Below are positions 42,355-63,747 of a stretch of DNA of 64,000 nucleotides, piece by piece. The notes below the pieces were generated by a model, which saw nothing but the letters and a program-made list of their open reading frames with translations, was not told the DNA's origin and ran no database searches. Every line of letters begins with the position of its first letter. Position 1 is the first letter of the stretch. The DNA comes from a virus: IMG/VR virus record IMGVR_UViG_3300029258_002338, positions 1-64,000 of that record; one strand, given 5' to 3'. A program made the translations under genes and the position numbers.

Positions 42355-42585
42355 ATGATCAAGGTCACTTTCATCAACAACATGGGCGGTGGTTACGGCA
42401 TGACGAAGGACGTGCCGGACGGCACCACGATCGACAGCTTCCTGCGCGAGACCCTCGGCGAGGGTTTCGATCCGCACAGCTACAAGATCTCGGTGAACAG
42501 GAGTCCGGTCGCCGCCAGCTACACGCTGGTCGACGGCGACCGGATCTCCGCCACCCCGACCAAGATCGAGGGGGCCGGCCGCTAG
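42355..42585 (+). CDS. Ubiquitin-like beta-grasp modifier (Ubl)
   Basis: 76 residues, the size of ubiquitin. Pattern of a beta-grasp fold: strand IKVTFINN, turn, strand MTKDVPDG, helix TIDSFLRETLG, strand YKISVNRSPV, then YTLVDGDRISATPT, as in ThiS/MoaD/Ubl families where LxxGDxIxxxP is typical. It ends KIEGAGR. Ubls need a C-terminal glycine for activation, so removal of the final Arg (leaving -GAG) or another cut by the JAB protease encoded two genes on would be expected. It is the first gene of the operon and probably the conjugated modifier. Confidence 0.82.
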   Translation: MIKVTFINNMGGGYGMTKDVPDGTTIDSFLRETLGEGFDPHSYKISVNRSPVAASYTLVDGDRISATPTKIEGAGR

Positions 42586-42597
42586 GCTGGAACCCTC

Positions 42598-43725
42598 ATG
42601 ACCGATCCCGAACTCAATCGGGAAGCTCTGCGGCTGGCCGTGCGGTTCCTTCGGGAGCCGCCGGCCCGGCCCCGGGCTTCTCAGCTCCAACTTGCAAGCT
42701 GCATCCGTGACGCGGTCTCGCGACTCGAGACTGCGTACAAGCACATTCGTCGGCACTCACGGGTCTCGGACCCGTACAAGCAGGACCGCTACAGACGGTC
42801 CATCCAGAGGATCGTCTGCTCGAACGCCCACTGCTTTCGGCAGTGGGATGACGAGCAGACCATCGAGGACGAGCTTCGTCAGCTCCACCCGCTCCAGCCG
42901 AATCTCCGGGACGTCTACGATGACATCCTGGCGATTCAGGACGAGTGGGGGGCAGCTCTGGATCTGAGGCAGAAGACGATCGTGGTCGTGACCGACCCGA
43001 TCGTCCTAGAAGGGATCAACCTGGGTCGGATGAGCATCAAGCTCTACATCCGCCCCGGAGATCTCAGCTTTCGGATCCATCCCTTGGAGCCCAACTACGG
43101 GCGCAACGACTATTTCCACCCGCACGTCAGTGCGGGAGGGGATATGTGCGAGGGAGACGCTGAGACCAAGATCAACAACGCCATCATCAACGGTTCGATC
43201 TACGACGTCGTTCAGATCCTGATGTCCACGCTCACCACCTACAATTCGTCTTCGCCATACCTGGCGCTGGAAGACTGGGATGGTCACTCGGAGACTTGCC
43301 CCAACTGTGGGGATGAGATCTCCGAGGACGACGCCTACAGCTGTGATAGCTGCACTGAGACCCACTGTGGGATCTGCGTGCACTACTGCGAGGAGTGCGG
43401 AGGGTACTATTGCGAGGGATGCAGAACCGTCTACTCGTGTGAGCAGTGCCATTCGTCCATCTGTTCCCGCTGTTCCTACACCTGTTCCGTCTGTGGCGAG
43501 CAGTTCTGCGACGTGTGCCTCAATTCCTGCGAGGATTGCGGTTCGCTCTTCTGCGAGGAGTGCAACCGCGATCCCGATGGGCGCTGCTGCCCGGAGTGCT
43601 ACGAGCGCGAGGAGGAAGAAGATGACGAAGAAGAAGAAGAAGCCGAAGTCGGGGACAAAGTCAAAGTCGGAGACAACGACTACGACGGCGACCACGATCA
43701 CACCGGCTACGCCCGAGCCGTCTAA
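42598..43725 (+). CDS. E2-like ubiquitin-conjugating enzyme fused to a RING-like Cys-rich domain
   Basis: 375 residues. Helical region (1-120), then a UBC-like core: LGRMSIKLYIRPG strands and YFHPHVSAGGDMCEGD (172-186) where HPHV and Cys184 match the catalytic pocket of prokaryotic E2 proteins. Residues 234-334 hold 25 Cys in CxxC pairs, consistent with RING/treble-clef zinc modules of E3 type. The C-terminus (337-375) is an acidic tail overlapping the next gene. An E2-RING fusion would combine transfer and target choice in one chain. Start ATG 42598 has a weak ribosome binding site and is probably coupled to the Ubl gene. Confidence 0.85.
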   Translation: MTDPELNREALRLAVRFLREPPARPRASQLQLASCIRDAVSRLETAYKHIRRHSRVSDPYKQDRYRRSIQRIVCSNAHCFRQWDDEQTIEDELRQLHPLQPNLRDVYDDILAIQDEWGAALDLRQKTIVVVTDPIVLEGINLGRMSIKLYIRPGDLSFRIHPLEPNYGRNDYFHPHVSAGGDMCEGDAETKINNAIINGSIYDVVQILMSTLTTYNSSSPYLALEDWDGHSETCPNCGDEISEDDAYSCDSCTETHCGICVHYCEECGGYYCEGCRTVYSCEQCHSSICSRCSYTCSVCGEQFCDVCLNSCEDCGSLFCEECNRDPDGRCCPECYEREEEEDDEEEEEAEVGDKVKVGDNDYDGDHDHTGYARAV

Positions 43726-44545
43726 GGCGGCTCTCACACCGATTCCGAAACCGCCTCGCGCAACCCTCTGTCTCACGCAGGAGGCGGCGGCCAAGGCTGC
43801 TTTCCTCCGGGACAACTACCAGCACGAAATCGGCGCCTTCGGCGTCGCGCTCAACGCCGACGATCCGCTGCTGATCCACGACTTCGTAGTGGTGAAGCAG
43901 GAAGTCAGCTGTGCATCGGTGGAGTTCGACGATCAAGCAGTGAGCGACCTTTTCAACGACTGCTTCGACGAGGGGATCCATCCGTACCAGTGCGGACGGG
44001 TCTGGATGCACACGCATCCGTCCGGGGTGACGTCTCCGTCCGGGACCGACGAGCAGACCTTCGAGAAGGTCTTCGGTTCCTGCGACTGGGCCGTCATGTT
44101 GATCTTCCCCAAGGGGGCGGCCAAGCCCTACTGCTGTCTCCAGTTCAACGGCGTCGTCTCCCACCGGGTCGAAATCCCGGTGGAGATTCTGCCCTACGAG
44201 GCAGACACCGCCGAGTGGGAAGCCGAGGTGGCGGCCAACGTCACCGAGGAAGTCTTCATCTACAGCGGCACGGCCAAGGCGGCATCCGACGCCGGAGTGC
44301 GGGATTCCGATCTCGCAATCTACGATCTGTTCGAGCCCTACGACTCCGAGCCTCGCGAGTCCGACCCGTTCTATTTCGACGCGCAAGGGCGCCGGGTCTG
44401 GTGTGGTGGAAACGAGGACGAACTCACCGAGTTCGCCCACGACGAAGGCTACATCATCCACGAGCACGCCGACGGGACCCAGGAGCTTCTCGACGAGGAT
44501 GAGATCTGCTGGTACCCCGACGACGAGGGGACGGGCTATGCATAG
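43622..44545 (+). CDS. JAB/JAMM metalloprotease (Ubl-processing or deconjugating)
   Basis: 307 residues from ATG 43622 behind GAGGAGGAAG; the frame extends far upstream only as a shadow of the E2 gene. Lys-rich and Thr-rich N-terminus (1-45), then JAMM motif: Glu69 in EIGAFGVAL, His130-x-His132 in MHTHPSGVTSPSGTD, Ser140 and Asp143, the exact HxHx7Sx2D zinc signature. The C-terminal 130 residues are acidic and of unknown fold. It likely trims the Ubl C-terminus and/or removes it from targets. Overlaps E2 by 104 nt and E1 by 8 nt. Confidence 0.9.
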   Translation: MTKKKKKPKSGTKSKSETTTTTATTITPATPEPSKAALTPIPKPPRATLCLTQEAAAKAAFLRDNYQHEIGAFGVALNADDPLLIHDFVVVKQEVSCASVEFDDQAVSDLFNDCFDEGIHPYQCGRVWMHTHPSGVTSPSGTDEQTFEKVFGSCDWAVMLIFPKGAAKPYCCLQFNGVVSHRVEIPVEILPYEADTAEWEAEVAANVTEEVFIYSGTAKAASDAGVRDSDLAIYDLFEPYDSEPRESDPFYFDAQGRRVWCGGNEDELTEFAHDEGYIIHEHADGTQELLDEDEICWYPDDEGTGYA

Positions 44546-45173
44546 ACGCGACGCCGACATCATCAATCAGGATCGTCTCTCGCAGCTCGACTTCATGGTA
44601 GTCGGTGTCGGAGCGGTAGGCCGGAACGTCGCTCTGATGCTGGCCTACATCGGCGCCGCCAGGATCACTCTCGTGGACTTCGACACCGTCGAGCCCGAGA
44701 ACCTGGCGACTCAAGGGTTCGTCCCGGCACAGCTGGGCGAGCCCAAGGTCAACGCCGTCTGCGAGGACATCAAGCGGATCGATCCCGAGATCGACGTCAC
44801 GGTTCATTTCTCACGCTGGAAGCGCAGCATGGCCGCCGAGGTGGTCTTCTGCTGCGTGGACTGCATCAAGGCCAGGAAGTTCATCTTCAACGCGGTGAAA
44901 AACGACTGCCGTCTGTTCCTGGACGGCCGCATGACCGCTGAGACCTTCCAGGCCCACGCCGTCTACGACGACGACACCACCGTCGACTATCGTGAGACCT
45001 TCTTCGCCCCGGGCGAGGCGCAGGGAGAAGCCTGCACCGCGAAGGCCACGATATACAACTCCAACATCGCCGCCGGCTTCCTCACGGCGGCCTTCACCAA
45101 GTGGCTTCGGGGCATCGACCCGGAGCCGTGCGTCAACGTCAACGTGCTCACCGCCGAGGTGGTGGTGGGCTGA
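44538..45173 (+). CDS. ThiF/E1-like Ubl-activating enzyme
   Basis: 211 residues. Rossmann nucleotide site VVGVGAVGRN (21-30), then ITLVDFDTVEPENLATQG (43-60) with the acidic residue and Asn typical of ThiF/MoeB/E1, and EACTAKATIYNSNIAAG (165-180), where Cys166 is the candidate catalytic cysteine. It would adenylate the Ubl C-terminus and pass it to the E2. No zinc-binding Cys pairs of MoeB type. Last gene of the operon; a terminator follows. Confidence 0.9.
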   Translation: MHRRDADIINQDRLSQLDFMVVGVGAVGRNVALMLAYIGAARITLVDFDTVEPENLATQGFVPAQLGEPKVNAVCEDIKRIDPEIDVTVHFSRWKRSMAAEVVFCCVDCIKARKFIFNAVKNDCRLFLDGRMTAETFQAHAVYDDDTTVDYRETFFAPGEAQGEACTAKATIYNSNIAAGFLTAAFTKWLRGIDPEPCVNVNVLTAEVVVG

Positions 45174-45192: not shown

Positions 45193-45228
45193 CTGAACGA
45201 GCCCCGGCGATTCGAGACCGGAAAGAGG

Positions 45229-45262
45229 CGGGGGAGTGCAACCGCTCCCCCGTCCATTTCTG
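45229..45262 (+). terminator. Intrinsic terminator after the E1 gene
   Basis: CGGGGGAG (45229-45236), loop TGCAACCG, CTCCCCCG (45245-45252), then the T-rich TCCATTTCTG. Confidence 0.65.
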
Positions 45263-45568: not shown

Positions 45569-46759
45569 ATGCAGATCTACAAGGCTTTCGATCAGTGGTG
45601 CAAGCGCCCGATCGACGAGCGTTTCTGGACGCTCGACGAGATGGTGCGCGCGACTCACTCCTGCTACGTCAACGCGGCCCAGGGCCAGGCGAGCTACGGC
45701 GATCTCTCCGTCATGGCCGAGGGGGACTCGATGTTCCTCGCGGGCAAGTCGGGCGTCAAGGCTCGCCTCTCGAACTGGGCGTTCGGCCAGCTCTGCTCGC
45801 GGGCCGGCGCGCCGGCGTCGTACCTCCGTCAGCTCCCGGCCCCGATGGCCCAGGACTGCCTGAACCACGGGCTCCGGGAGCAGGTGGAAGACGGCAACGC
45901 GCGGATCCTGTTCCACGGATCCCAGCCGTCTTCGACCGCTGCGGATCTGGCTCGCGATCCCAACCTGCTCGCCCGAGCTTTCACGTCCATGACCTACAAG
46001 CGGGTCTGGAACTGGGAGATCGGCAAGCGCCTGATCCAGCTCCGCGACGACGGGGGCTGGGTCACCCCTCCGGCCCGTCCCGCCCACCCCAACGACCCCC
46101 GGACCCGGAAGGCCACCGAGGCCGACTGTGGTCCGCACACGCTCGTCCAGCCCGGCGATCTGATCGCGCCGTCCGGCATCTACGCCAGCGACCACGATAC
46201 GTTCGTTTTCATGGTCAACCCGGAGCGGACGGTCAGCGACGGCAAGAACGAGCTGTCCCGCGGCTTCTTCTGCTGGAACTCCGAGGTCGGCGCTGCCAGC
46301 TTCGGGGTCATGGCGTTCCTCTACAACCACACCTGCTCGAACCACATCGTGTGGGGAGCGCAGGGGGTCCACGAGATCCGCGTCCGCCACGTCGGCAACG
46401 CGGACGAGCGGGCCTTCAACGAGCTGTCCGTCGAGCTGCGCAAGTACGCCGACGAGTCCACTTCGGACATGGACGCCAAGATCGCCAGCGCGAAGAAGTA
46501 CGTCATCCCCGGCAACGACAAGTCGTCCGTCGTGGACGCGATCTTCGGGATCGCGCGCCAGAAGCGCGTGCAGATCCCGCAGAAGGCGTTCCGGGCGGCC
46601 TACGACATCGCCGACCAGCGGGAGGACGACTACGGTCACCCCAACACGCTCTGGGCCCTGACCCAGGGTCTCACCCAGCTCTCCCAGCAGTCCGAGTTCG
46701 CCGACAAGCGGGTCGACCTCGACCGGCAGGCGGGCAAGCTGCTGGAGATCGCGTTCTAG
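45569..46759 (+). CDS. DUF932 family protein
   Basis: 396 residues. WNWEIGKRLIQLRDDGGW, IYASDHDTFVFMVNPERTV, LSRGFFCWNSEVG, YNHTCSNHIVWG and LWALTQGLTQLSQ are hallmark stretches of the DUF932 phage/plasmid-like proteins (TIGR03299-type). Biochemical role is unknown; members occur on plasmids and phages, often near replication or PRTRC-like genes. It follows the Ubl operon but has its own structured leader, so it is separately controlled. Confidence 0.88.
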   Translation: MQIYKAFDQWCKRPIDERFWTLDEMVRATHSCYVNAAQGQASYGDLSVMAEGDSMFLAGKSGVKARLSNWAFGQLCSRAGAPASYLRQLPAPMAQDCLNHGLREQVEDGNARILFHGSQPSSTAADLARDPNLLARAFTSMTYKRVWNWEIGKRLIQLRDDGGWVTPPARPAHPNDPRTRKATEADCGPHTLVQPGDLIAPSGIYASDHDTFVFMVNPERTVSDGKNELSRGFFCWNSEVGAASFGVMAFLYNHTCSNHIVWGAQGVHEIRVRHVGNADERAFNELSVELRKYADESTSDMDAKIASAKKYVIPGNDKSSVVDAIFGIARQKRVQIPQKAFRAAYDIADQREDDYGHPNTLWALTQGLTQLSQQSEFADKRVDLDRQAGKLLEIAF

Positions 46760-60612: not shown

Positions 60613-61365
60613 CTACCCCTCCAGCCCGAGCCGCTCGCGCAGCTTCGCCAGGTGGCCCCAGGTCTCCTCCCACTCGTCGCGGTGGATCCCGTAGGGCGGC
60701 TCCTCCAGGGGCGGCAGCTCCTCGGCCTCGAGGGCGATGTCGTTCTCGAACTTCGAGGTGCGGTGCCAGGTGTTGGCGGAGTGAATGAGGATGATGCCGG
60801 GCACCTCCCACTTGAACCACCGCATCACCTCGGCCTCCTCGAGGCTGCGAGAGAGCGGCATCACCCACTCCGAGTCCTCCCCGATCAGCTTGTTGGGGAA
60901 GCGGAAGGCCTGGGCCGTGTCCTTGTGGAAGGCGCAGAAGGGGATGTGCGGGTAGGTCATCGAGTCCCGCGCCCGGAACCACAGCATCTCGTCGAGGATC
61001 AGCCGGTGGTTGACGCAGAGCATGGCCATCCGGTGCCCGCTCTCGATCGCCTCGCCGAGCAGCTCGTGGTGCCGCGGGTGGTGCCAGTCGTCGTCGTCGT
61101 GCCACAGCAGGACGTCGTGCTCGATCGCCTCCAGGCCCACCTGGCGAGAGCGCCCGACCAGGGCCGAGGGCTCGAGCCGGATGAACTCCAGGTCGGACAC
61201 GCCGGTCTCCCGGCGCACGTCGTCCGGCCTGACGGCCCGACCCGCTTCCGACGAGTCCACGACGATCAGCTGGTCCGTGGGCCGGGTCTGCTTGCGCAGG
61301 TTCCAGGCCCACCACTCGAGCCACTCCGGCCGGTTCTTGGTGACGACGATCGTGGAGAGTTTCAC
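60613..61365 (-). CDS. Family 2-type (GT-A) glycosyltransferase
   Basis: 250 residues. STIVVTKNRPEWLEWW start and LIVVDSS strand, then LLWHDDDDWHHPRHHELL with the metal-binding DxD set (about 89-92). GEDSEWVMPLSR fits the acidic catalytic loop. It would transfer a sugar from a nucleotide-sugar to glycan or protein. First of four consecutive glycan genes, coupled by ATGA to the next. Confidence 0.85.
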   Translation of the reverse strand: MKLSTIVVTKNRPEWLEWWAWNLRKQTRPTDQLIVVDSSEAGRAVRPDDVRRETGVSDLEFIRLEPSALVGRSRQVGLEAIEHDVLLWHDDDDWHHPRHHELLGEAIESGHRMAMLCVNHRLILDEMLWFRARDSMTYPHIPFCAFHKDTAQAFRFPNKLIGEDSEWVMPLSRSLEEAEVMRWFKWEVPGIILIHSANTWHRTSKFENDIALEAEELPPLEEPPYGIHRDEWEETWGHLAKLRERLGLEG

Positions 61366-62132
61366 AGCTCACCTCCTCCGAGGAAGGGACACGCGCGCAG
61401 CAGGGGCATTACGTTGCGGGAGACGTCGTGGGGCTTGCACATCGCCGCGAGCTGGCGAGCCGGCAGCTGATCCACTTCGCGCAGGTCGACCGGGTCCGGG
61501 GGGAACCGCATCCCGAGACCCTGGTAGTAGTCGTGGAACTTGAAGCCTCGTCCGAGCACCCGGCCGCTGAACTCGACCCACAGGGACGGGATGCCGTAGG
61601 AGTCAGCCGCGATCAGGCCGTGCAGCGCCGACGAGGCGATGGCCTTGCAGCGCAAGACGTCCGCGATGACCTGAGAGGGCGGCGACGTGACGTCGATGAA
61701 GCAGACGTCGGCCGGCAGGTGCCGCAAGGCCGGGTGGTCGTGGTCCACGTAGTGCGGGATGATGCCCAGGGAGTACTGGTCGGTGCGCTCCCCACCGTAG
61801 GCCAGAGGGAGCAGGATCGCCGGGTCGCCGTAGACGGCCGGGCACTCGACGCCCTGGTCCTGGAGCCACTTGCGTGAGAGCGGGCCGCGGACCGCGTGGA
61901 CCTTCTTTGGCTTGCAGATGAGCTTCAGGTGCGGCCCGATCACGCCCGAGCCCCAGACCTCCATCGGACCACAGGGGTGGTCGAGGATCGAGCCGCTGAC
62001 CAAGTAGCCCGGGGGGTTGATCGTGATGCGCGTGGGGCGGCCCGACAGCTTGCTGACCAGCCGCGCGTTGATCGCGTCCCCGAAGTTCGGGTCCTGGTGA
62101 TAGTAGAAGATCGGGATCGCTTCTCGCTTCAT
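61362..62132 (-). CDS. Polysaccharide pyruvyl transferase-like protein
   Basis: 256 residues from ATG 62132 (ATGA overlap). FYYHQDPNFGDAINARLVSK, GSGVIGP, VRGPLSRKWL, YGDPAILLP, GIIPHYVDHDHP and SSALHGLIAADSYGIPS follow the order of the PS_pyruv_trans family. These enzymes add ketal-linked pyruvate to sugars from phosphoenolpyruvate. It would give acidic sugars on a surface polymer. Confidence 0.86.
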   Translation of the reverse strand: MKREAIPIFYYHQDPNFGDAINARLVSKLSGRPTRITINPPGYLVSGSILDHPCGPMEVWGSGVIGPHLKLICKPKKVHAVRGPLSRKWLQDQGVECPAVYGDPAILLPLAYGGERTDQYSLGIIPHYVDHDHPALRHLPADVCFIDVTSPPSQVIADVLRCKAIASSALHGLIAADSYGIPSLWVEFSGRVLGRGFKFHDYYQGLGMRFPPDPVDLREVDQLPARQLAAMCKPHDVSRNVMPLLRACPFLGGGEL

Positions 62133-63043
62133 AGGAGCCCCTGGATGCGCAAGATGACGTGGTGGGTCAGCGTGGCCCGCGCGAGGCGGTAGGCCTCGTC
62201 CGTCAGCCCGAACCGATACCGCCGGGCCGCGGCGATGATGCCGTCGTACTCCTCCTGGCTCATGGTCAACAGGCGCTCGCGGAGCTGCCTCGTGTGGAAC
62301 CACTTGGTCTTGGGGTTGAAGTACGGCGAGAGGTCCACGTAGGCCTCGGCGGGCACCAGCTCGCTCACGGTGGGTGAGCCCAGGTAGAGAGCCACCCGGT
62401 CGGTCAGGAAGGCGTCGTGTAGCTTCTCGCTGACGTAGTTGGGGCAGCGGCAGTTCTCGAGCGCGAAGACGAAGGCCGCGTTGCACTCGGCGATCTCGGC
62501 CCACTTCCTCTGGCGCCACGCGCCGTCAGGCTCGCCGGTCTTGGTGTCCACGTCCCAGCCGGACCCCCGCACCACCATGCTGGGGTAGTCTTCGAGGAAC
62601 CGCTCGACGATTCCGGCCCGCGGCCCGTAGAGGTTGACGCACCCCGGGTAGTCGGGCATCTGCTCGAACCCGTACCGACTCCCCGCGTAGTAGATCGTGC
62701 GGTCACCCAGGGCCGTCGTGGATCGCACCACGGACTCCGCCCACCGGGAATGGTAGGGGAAGACCATCGGGTTCGACGTGTTGGAGAAATCTCCCAGCAC
62801 CCACGGCCTGCGCATGAAGCCGTAGAAGCTATGAAAGCCCCCGTGGTCCCCGTAGAGCTTGATCCGGTGCGGCGCTAGCGGCGGCTCGTTCATGACGATG
62901 ATCGAGCGGTTCGGGGGCGTGGGGTGGCGATAGGTGCTGAAGTAGACCCAGAAGTCAGCCTCCTCCGGGTCGTCGGTCACCCGGAACTGCCGATCCATGA
63001 GGGCCGGGTCCAAGCTCGAGAACTCATCGACGAAGACCCTCAC
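62129..63043 (-). CDS. GT10-like (fucosyltransferase-type) glycosyltransferase
   Basis: 304 residues from GTG 63043 (GTGA overlap). C-terminal half has FVFALENCRCPNYVSEKLHDAFLTDRVALYLGSPTV, split here only for description: the FxxENxxxxxYVxEKxxxA core of GT10 alpha-1,3-fucosyltransferases at about 207-230. Arg and Gly-rich N-terminal Rossmann part precedes. The donor sugar cannot be read from sequence. Confidence 0.78.
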   Translation of the reverse strand: MRVFVDEFSSLDPALMDRQFRVTDDPEEADFWVYFSTYRHPTPPNRSIIVMNEPPLAPHRIKLYGDHGGFHSFYGFMRRPWVLGDFSNTSNPMVFPYHSRWAESVVRSTTALGDRTIYYAGSRYGFEQMPDYPGCVNLYGPRAGIVERFLEDYPSMVVRGSGWDVDTKTGEPDGAWRQRKWAEIAECNAAFVFALENCRCPNYVSEKLHDAFLTDRVALYLGSPTVSELVPAEAYVDLSPYFNPKTKWFHTRQLRERLLTMSQEEYDGIIAAARRYRFGLTDEAYRLARATLTHHVILRIQGLL

Positions 63044-63696
63044 TTCGGATCCTCGTAGCCGTAGGCCTTGGCCACGGCGGCGTAGGGCGCCCACAGGCGC
63101 TTCCAGTGCTCCTCCGGTACTTCTTCCCGCCACGCACCGGCGCGCCCCTTGCGGAAGAACCTGGGCGTCTCCGCGTGGAAGTCCGAGAAGGGCGGCAGGG
63201 GCTCGCTGGTCAACACCGGGGGCTCGTGCCGCAGGATCCGGCCTAGAGCGGCGCGGAGGGTCTCGACGCCGTCCTTCAGGAGGTCCTCGTACCGCACGAA
63301 GTCGGAGATGTGGCCGCCCCAGTCCTCGAGCCACTTGACGTACCACCCCACCCACTTGTCACGCCTCCAGACGCACTCCAGGGCCTCCTCGAAGGGGCCT
63401 GGGTCTCCCTCGTAGACCTGGGCGTAGTGAGCCCGAGAGACGAGCGTGTCGAGGGGGTGGCGGACGACCACGAGAGCCGGGTTGTGGCTGACGTGGCGCC
63501 GCTCGTGGGTCTTGTAGGCCCACAGCCGGCTCTCGGGGGCGTCTCGGTTCAGCTTGCTGGCCAGGGGGCCCTTCAACGGGCTCGAGGCGCGGTAGGGCGA
63601 CACCGTCGAGATGCCGAAGTGGTGCTCCAGCAAGAGCCGGGTGAAGGTGTTGCCGGTACGCGGGTAGGACGCGAGGAAAAAGTTGTGGTGCTTCAC
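63040..63696 (-). CDS. Sulfotransferase
   Basis: 218 residues from GTG 63696 behind GGAGG; a longer frame lacks one. SYPRTGNTF (about 9-17) is the 5'-phosphosulfate loop and VVRHPLDTLVSRAHYA (about 77-92) the 3'-phosphate motif of PAPS-dependent sulfotransferases. It would add sulfate to a glycan or small molecule. Fourth glycan-cluster gene. Confidence 0.85.
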   Translation of the reverse strand: MKHHNFFLASYPRTGNTFTRLLLEHHFGISTVSPYRASSPLKGPLASKLNRDAPESRLWAYKTHERRHVSHNPALVVVRHPLDTLVSRAHYAQVYEGDPGPFEEALECVWRRDKWVGWYVKWLEDWGGHISDFVRYEDLLKDGVETLRAALGRILRHEPPVLTSEPLPPFSDFHAETPRFFRKGRAGAWREEVPEEHWKRLWAPYAAVAKAYGYEDPK

Positions 63697-63717
63697 GGGG
63701 AACCTCCAGGCTCTACC

Positions 63718-63747
63718 AAGGTAGCCATCCGCGGCCCACCATGTCAA
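63718..63747 (-). promoter_or_regulatory. Promoter for the glycan cluster
   Basis: TTGACA (63747-63742), 18 nt, TACCTT (63723-63718) on the minus strand, about 22 nt before the GTG start at 63696. Confidence 0.5.

Follow-up and report, generated by a model that had tools for sequence, protein, structure and literature searches.

The locus and its four proteins

The DNA considered here is a 64,000-nucleotide stretch of viral sequence (hereafter the window) that corresponds to bases 1-64000 of the 70,174-bp IMG/VR record IMGVR_UViG_3300029258_002338, and at 42355-45173 it carries a cassette of four genes for a ubiquitin-like modifier (Ubl), an E2-like enzyme, a JAMM/JAB metalloprotease and an E1-like adenylating enzyme. 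The first 144 bases of the record are the same as its last 144, and this direct terminal repeat makes a complete phage genome probable. All four open reading frames (ORFs) are intact, lie on the + strand and are adjacent or overlapping, with 104 nucleotides (nt) shared by the E2 and JAMM genes and 8 nt by the JAMM and E1 genes. An earlier note on this DNA had read the region as a complete operon encoding a 76-residue beta-grasp modifier, an E2 with an HPHV...C184 site and 25 further Cys behind it, a JAMM protease with an exact HxHx7Sx2D site and a ThiF-type E1 with GVGAVG and Cys166; the intact ORFs, the residues, the predicted Ubl fold and a recurring gene order all bear this out, with weak profile support in the case of the JAMM protein. 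The genes and protein regions are as follows.

42355..42585, + strand: Ubl modifier gene (76 aa, single beta-grasp domain)
42562..42573, + strand: conserved Lys-Ile-Glu-Gly (Ubl residues 70-73), the predicted mature C-terminus
42598..43725, + strand: gene for the E2-like enzyme with Cys-ladder tail (375 aa)
42895..43242, + strand: UBC-like catalytic domain, about residues 100-215 of the E2, with HPHV and catalytic-type Cys184 (from DSSP of the model and Foldseek)
43297..43599, + strand: Cys ladder, E2 residues 234-334, with 12 CxxC (from Cys spacing; predicted to bind zinc)
43622..44545, + strand: JAMM/JAB metalloprotease gene (307 aa)
44538..45173, + strand: E1-like adenylating enzyme gene (211 aa)

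For single sequences the support from hidden Markov models (HMMs) is uneven, being clear for the E1, weak for the JAMM and absent for the Ubl and the E2, neither of which gave anything significant in Pfam, NCBIfam, PHROGs or PADLOC, so that the argument depends on their relatives. The E1 matches Pfam ThiF at 1.2e-25, above the cut-off, and is significant as a single sequence. Its GVGAVG nucleotide site and its catalytic-type Cys166 (in C-T-A-K-A-T) are accompanied by invariant alignment columns R4, G23, G25, G28, D47, D49, K70 and C166, so that the GxGxxG motif, the Arg, the Asp/Lys nucleotide site and the Cys of the E1/ThiF superfamily are all present, and its PDB relatives are MccB, MoeB, UBA5, UBA1 and BubCD. 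The JAMM protein has the active-site residues of its family (E69 and H130-T-H132-x7-S140-x2-D143), and the E...HxHx7SxxD pattern is complete in 72 of 82 relatives. It matches Pfam Prok-JAB weakly, at 2.6e-4, which is below the curated cut-off, and its nearest solved relative by sequence is the Caldiarchaeum Rpn11-like protein 6fjv (E=0.037).

The AlphaFold2 model of the Ubl (predicted local distance difference test score, pLDDT, 85.6) is a beta-grasp with strands at residues 2-8, 14-20, 43-47 and 63-68 and a helix at 26-34, and its best solved-structure match in Foldseek is Caldiarchaeum ubiquitin (template modelling score, TM, 0.70; E=1e-4). Pfam ThiS matches 24 of 31 members of the Ubl family, the best at 1.1e-4, and MoaD is matched as well. 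Gly13 and Gly73 are the only invariant residues in the 31-sequence alignment, with a nearly invariant Ala after Gly73, and the fold together with this C-terminal Gly identifies the protein as ubiquitin-like. The Ala-Gly-Arg behind Gly73 is a predicted propeptide: in all 66 Ubls x-[E/D/A]-G, nearly always preceded by Lys, is followed by a variable tail, and in 61 of the 66 the residue directly after the Gly is Ala. One viral contig (L088, 2417-3082) has a polyubiquitin-like gene for a tandem precursor of two Ubls, each ending ISVTPLKVEGA, and the Ubl of another (L087) has an 80-residue extension behind KIEG. The invariant Gly, the variable tail and the tandem precursor make processing by the JAMM protein after Gly73 the likely first step, and such trimming is the economical reading of these alignments; there is a precedent in Caldiarchaeum, where pro-ubiquitin is cut by its own Rpn11/JAMM (PMC5654768).

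H174, P175 and C184 are invariant in an alignment of 47 E2 sequences, from which an AlphaFold2 model with pLDDT 84.5 was obtained. In the catalytic domain DSSP assigns a helix at 103-117, strands within 120-162 and helices at 188-197 and 201-213. The best Foldseek matches of this domain are mainly E2s (UBE2A/RAD6, UBE2H and UBE2W; probability 0.97-0.99 and, by target, a TM of about 0.5, but a best E of only about 0.02), and in its model it resembles RAD6-type E2s.

The tail behind this domain, which had been called RING-like in the earlier note, is actually an all-Cys ladder of the form CxxC-x11-[CxxC-x4-CxxC-x3]n, with a 15-residue period and variable length. Many of the ladder Cys are invariant or nearly so in the 47-sequence alignment, while the His of C3HC4 is not conserved and a permissive pattern fits 21 of 75 tails. 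We rejected a canonical RING identity because the conserved ligands are all Cys and the His of C3HC4/C4HC3 is not kept. The nearest solved matches, at marginal E, are C4C4-RING, FYVE, B-box and TRAF fingers, and TFIIH p44, which has an all-Cys C4C4 RING, is a marginal profile match. From the Cys spacing we infer that the tail binds zinc and, since all-Cys RINGs exist, it may plausibly serve the E2 of its own chain in an E3-like way. The number of CxxC is 10 in 44 of 53 bacterial copies, 4-19 in viral copies and 12 in the window; ladders longer than the bacterial 10, with 12-19 CxxC, are found in the phage copies L005, L006, L085, L087, L090, L092 and the window, and to judge by these counts the repeat looks as if it were expanding in phages.

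Relatives and comparable systems

Scans with single proteins detected no close relatives of the E2, E1 or JAMM in viral contigs, and alignments were needed; tblastn of the E2 and JAMM against phage records also gave no match, and a plasmid scan gave two weak E1 matches only. Alignment-based E1 scans identified a window-type E1 in 12 further viral contigs (L005, L006, L085-L094) and gave 104 bacterial loci, 80 of them retrieved for analysis. By record title Planctomycetota account for 76 of these 80, the four exceptions being metagenome-assembled genomes, and among the carriers are the isolates Rhodopirellula maiorica SM1, R. solitaria CA85 and Neorhodopirellula pilleata Pla100. The order Ubl-E2-JAMM-E1 is found in 11 of 13 viral loci (the window included, hence 10 other contigs) and in 53/53 bacterial loci with the full gene set detected; all four genes are present in 46 of the 48 bacterial loci with >3.5 kb of upstream sequence. 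HPHV...C in the E2, H[TS]HP...PSxxD in the JAMM and C[TS]x[KR]xT in the E1 are conserved across loci, and the recurrence of gene order excludes chance as the origin of the pattern.

Among planctomycetes the cassette is sporadic (9 full-length copies in 294 sampled genomes, six copies in one genome, G242), and recombinases or integrases are often nearby; these mobile-element copies are an addition to the earlier note. Upstream of many bacterial copies lie genes for an AAA ATPase, a TOPRIM-like protein (by eye), a DUF1257-like protein and a 320-aa protein. None of these four partners was found in the window phage, which suggests that the four-gene unit is the minimal shared system. In L181, L182, L184 and about a dozen other planctomycete loci the cassette, with recombinases in the vicinity, is preceded by lipoprotein-like, DUF1257-like, TOPRIM-like, AAA ATPase, 320-aa and 85-aa genes. 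At 14369-19889 of L184 (Rhodopirellula solitaria) it is followed by genes that by eye resemble an OLD-type ATPase, a small metalloprotease and a type I restriction subunit, and this neighbourhood is possibly a defence island. The viral contig L086, in which the cassette sits amid the DUF1257, TOPRIM, AAA and serine recombinase genes of planctomycete elements, is probably a bacterial mobile element that was called viral.

A second lineage became apparent from the window E1, with 75 phage records matched at an E no higher than 1e-3. Ahead of the E1 gene, crAss-like and Flavobacterium phages have genes for a Ubl-like protein (K-x-K-S-G plus an extension), an H-S-H-[VL]...C protein and a JAMM protein. 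Among 84 viral loci of the crAss/Bacteroidota type, 77 have the JAMM pattern with an E2-like candidate ORF ahead of it, and a Ubl-like candidate is present in 76; these candidates were picked by position and a number of those taken for a Ubl are plainly something else, such as primase, so that the figure for the Ubl is a maximum. Comparing profiles of the window type with those of the crAss type supports homology and gave P=2e-7 for the JAMM, P=7e-4 for the E2 and P=2.4e-3 for the Ubl, against 0.2-0.6 for mismatched controls; HPHV...C is paired with HSHV...C in the E2 alignment and the terminal Gly motifs are paired in that of the Ubl. In phiCrAss001 (L185, 2932-7342) gp79 is the Ubl, gp78 the E2, gp77 the annotated metalloprotease and gp76 the annotated ThiF, and the cassette lies between the primase and uracil-DNA glycosylase genes, i.e. 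in the replication block. Across Crassvirales and other Bacteroidota phages (L185, L002-L004 and L007-L084), several of them cultured, a Ubl-E2-JAMM-E1 cassette has gone unrecognised, its genes being annotated as hypothetical, metalloprotease or ThiF. ThiF, metalloprotease and ubiquitin are unmentioned in the portions of text searched from the original phiCrAss001 paper, the Crassvirales overviews and the 2023 isolate paper. With 10 other window-type viral contigs and these 77 of 84 loci, the phage location is not the exception that it was first taken for.

Several known systems can be set beside the cassette. BilA, the Ubl of the Bil systems, is a two-domain, ISG15-like protein; by that definition the window Ubl, with 76 aa and one domain, is not a BilA. 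The four genes of Bil, which encode a Ubl (BilA), an E2 (BilB), a JAMM (BilC) and an E1 (BilD) (PMC11354881), have the same composition and order as the window cassette. No Bil-named model matched the cassette proteins. From its gene content we would class the cassette as a Bil-like variant, set apart by the single-domain 76-aa Ubl, the fusion of E2 and Cys ladder and the phage location. The ubiquitin operon of Caldiarchaeum subterraneum provides the nearest Ubl fold and the nearest JAMM sequence and shares a precursor Ubl and a RING-type component, but has a separate small RING protein and Gly-Gly where the window has an E2-borne Cys ladder and a single Gly. Reportedly, Burroughs, Iyer and Aravind (2011) described prokaryotic RING-E2-E1-JAB-Ubl operons in bacteria. 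Operon type 6d of Iyer 2006, which we take to be PRTRC, likewise brings Ubl, JAB, E1 and E2 genes together; the window E1 scores 35.1 bits with PRTRC_ThiF (cut-off 144.75), and the other three proteins have no PRTRC match. The type 6d E2 has no upstream His and one His downstream (PMC1779556), whereas the window E2 has HPHV upstream of its Cys. The cassette also differs from Cap2/Cap3 of the cyclic-oligonucleotide-based antiphage signalling system (CBASS), where Cap2 is an E2-E1 fusion accompanied by a CD-NTase, as its E1 and E2 are separate genes and Cap3 gives 14.7 bits (cut-off 200); the PADLOC E1-E2 models match the E1 part only. The crAss-type cassette, exemplified by phiCrAss001, has the same order of Ubl, HSHV...C E2, JAMM and E1, but lacks the E2 Cys ladder and has a longer JAMM and a Ubl with K-x-K-S-G and a long extension. 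We found no description of a window-type cassette in phages or planctomycetes in the open-access literature, a search whose scope did not extend to Burroughs 2011, the 2024 Bil papers or preprints.

Proposed function and origin

Taken together, motifs and models make it likely that the cassette is a self-contained, reversible Ubl conjugation operon of the phage. In the cycle that we propose, the JAMM protein would trim the Ubl after Gly73, between KIEG and AGR; the E1 would adenylate Gly73, hold the Ubl as a thioester on Cys166 and hand it to Cys184 of the E2; the Cys-ladder tail would act as a substrate-binding and/or E3-like element while the Ubl is passed to amines on targets; and the JAMM protein would also take the Ubl off again. 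The most likely setting would be the intracellular replication phase of infection, and the likeliest use the modification of host or phage proteins for the benefit of the phage (takeover, replication control or counter-defence). The cassette lies amid replication genes in both phage types (in the window its same-strand block includes those for the exonuclease, the Sak4-like protein and DNA polymerase), and this location speaks for a role within the infected cell rather than for virion decoration; for a benefit specifically in the replication phase we see about even chances.

Several points weigh against this interpretation. Conjugation is read from genes and models, and sequence does not prove it as against sulfur transfer; the position in the replication block is only suggestive of timing. 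The best E of the E2 fold match is only about 0.02, the predicted Ubl terminus has a single Gly rather than Gly-Gly, and the homology of the E2 and Ubl with their crAss-type counterparts, marginal when judged only by profiles, depends on synteny for support.

The main rival is superinfection exclusion, in which the Ubl would be conjugated to virion proteins of incoming rival phages, much as Bil tags phage structural proteins. The cassette has the same four components as BilABCD (PMC11354881), its bacterial copies have the sporadic, sometimes multicopy distribution near recombinases noted above, and the L184 copy lies beside type I restriction-like genes (by eye, not by HMM). The crAss-like cassettes, however, are embedded among replication genes, unlike typical accessory defence cargo, and the window phage is without the AAA, TOPRIM-like and 320-aa partners of many bacterial copies; we consider exclusion unlikely, if worth keeping in view. 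It is very unlikely, in our estimate, that the window phage merely captured a bacterial mobile-element cassette as neutral or selfish cargo: relatives do occur in planctomycete elements with recombinases, but in the E1 tree the bacterial copies nest among viral ones, which form a paraphyletic set at the base (3 virus-label changes vs 20.3 when shuffled; support is moderate, with several weak forks and long branches), and the catalytic residues are all kept at 35-48% E1 identity, so the cassette is under selection. To a sulfur-carrier or cofactor/peptide-modifying pathway of the ThiS/MoaD-ThiF-JAB type we give hardly any credence, since the matches of the Ubl family to ThiS and MoaD and of the E1 to ThiF, MoeB and MccB are countered by a dedicated E2, whose His-Pro and Cys are invariant, by best fold matches to protein-conjugating Ubls and E2s and by recurrent neighbours among which no sulfur or cofactor genes were identified.

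Returning to conjugation for the benefit of the phage, a broader version, rather doubtful as yet and offered tentatively, is that reversible Ubl conjugation, with the E2 and its expandable Cys ladder as a one-chain E2/E3, is a core function, and probably an ancient one, in several lineages of phages (Crassvirales, Flavobacterium phages and relatives of the window phage) that tag proteins during DNA replication, and that the planctomycete versions are phage-derived. Bacterial Ubl conjugation is known chiefly as anti-phage defence; if several phage lineages, abundant gut phages among them, have the full cycle within their replication block, then bacterial viruses make use of ubiquitin-like tagging themselves. 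Given how widely the gene set recurs in phages, a system familiar mainly from eukaryotes and from bacterial defence appears to be a recurring phage tool. Both phiCrAss001 and the Flavobacterium phages are cultured, which makes the idea directly testable, and how such systems arose is a question on which the processing signal, the joining of E2 and tail and the basal position of the viral E1s also bear.

Flanking features of the window

Two further features lie downstream of the cassette.

45227..45254, + strand: terminator-like hairpin 3' of the E1 gene (12-pair stem; a consensus match only, with a weak T tract)
45569..46759, + strand: gene for a DUF932 protein, next downstream (Pfam DUF932 1.2e-7; a neighbour whose membership in the cassette is not established)

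The operon had been credited with its own leader and terminator. A search for a sigma-70-like promoter of the cassette found none, which leaves the leader without support; a terminator-like hairpin is present, but the region exceeds expectation for such hairpins only mildly (8 found, 3.5 expected). DUF932 was rejected as a cassette partner because it is beside no other cassette among the loci examined.

Elsewhere the genome encodes a DNA polymerase, a primase/helicase, an exonuclease, a Sak4-like protein and a lytic transglycosylase, along with a weak integrase match; PHROGs profiles identified no terminase or capsid gene. A 622-aa window protein had no match in 392 planctomycete genomes, a result that is uninformative as to host. 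At 60613-63747, on the - strand, is a run of genes whose products by eye resemble a family-2 glycosyltransferase, a polysaccharide pyruvyl transferase, a fucosyltransferase and a sulfotransferase.

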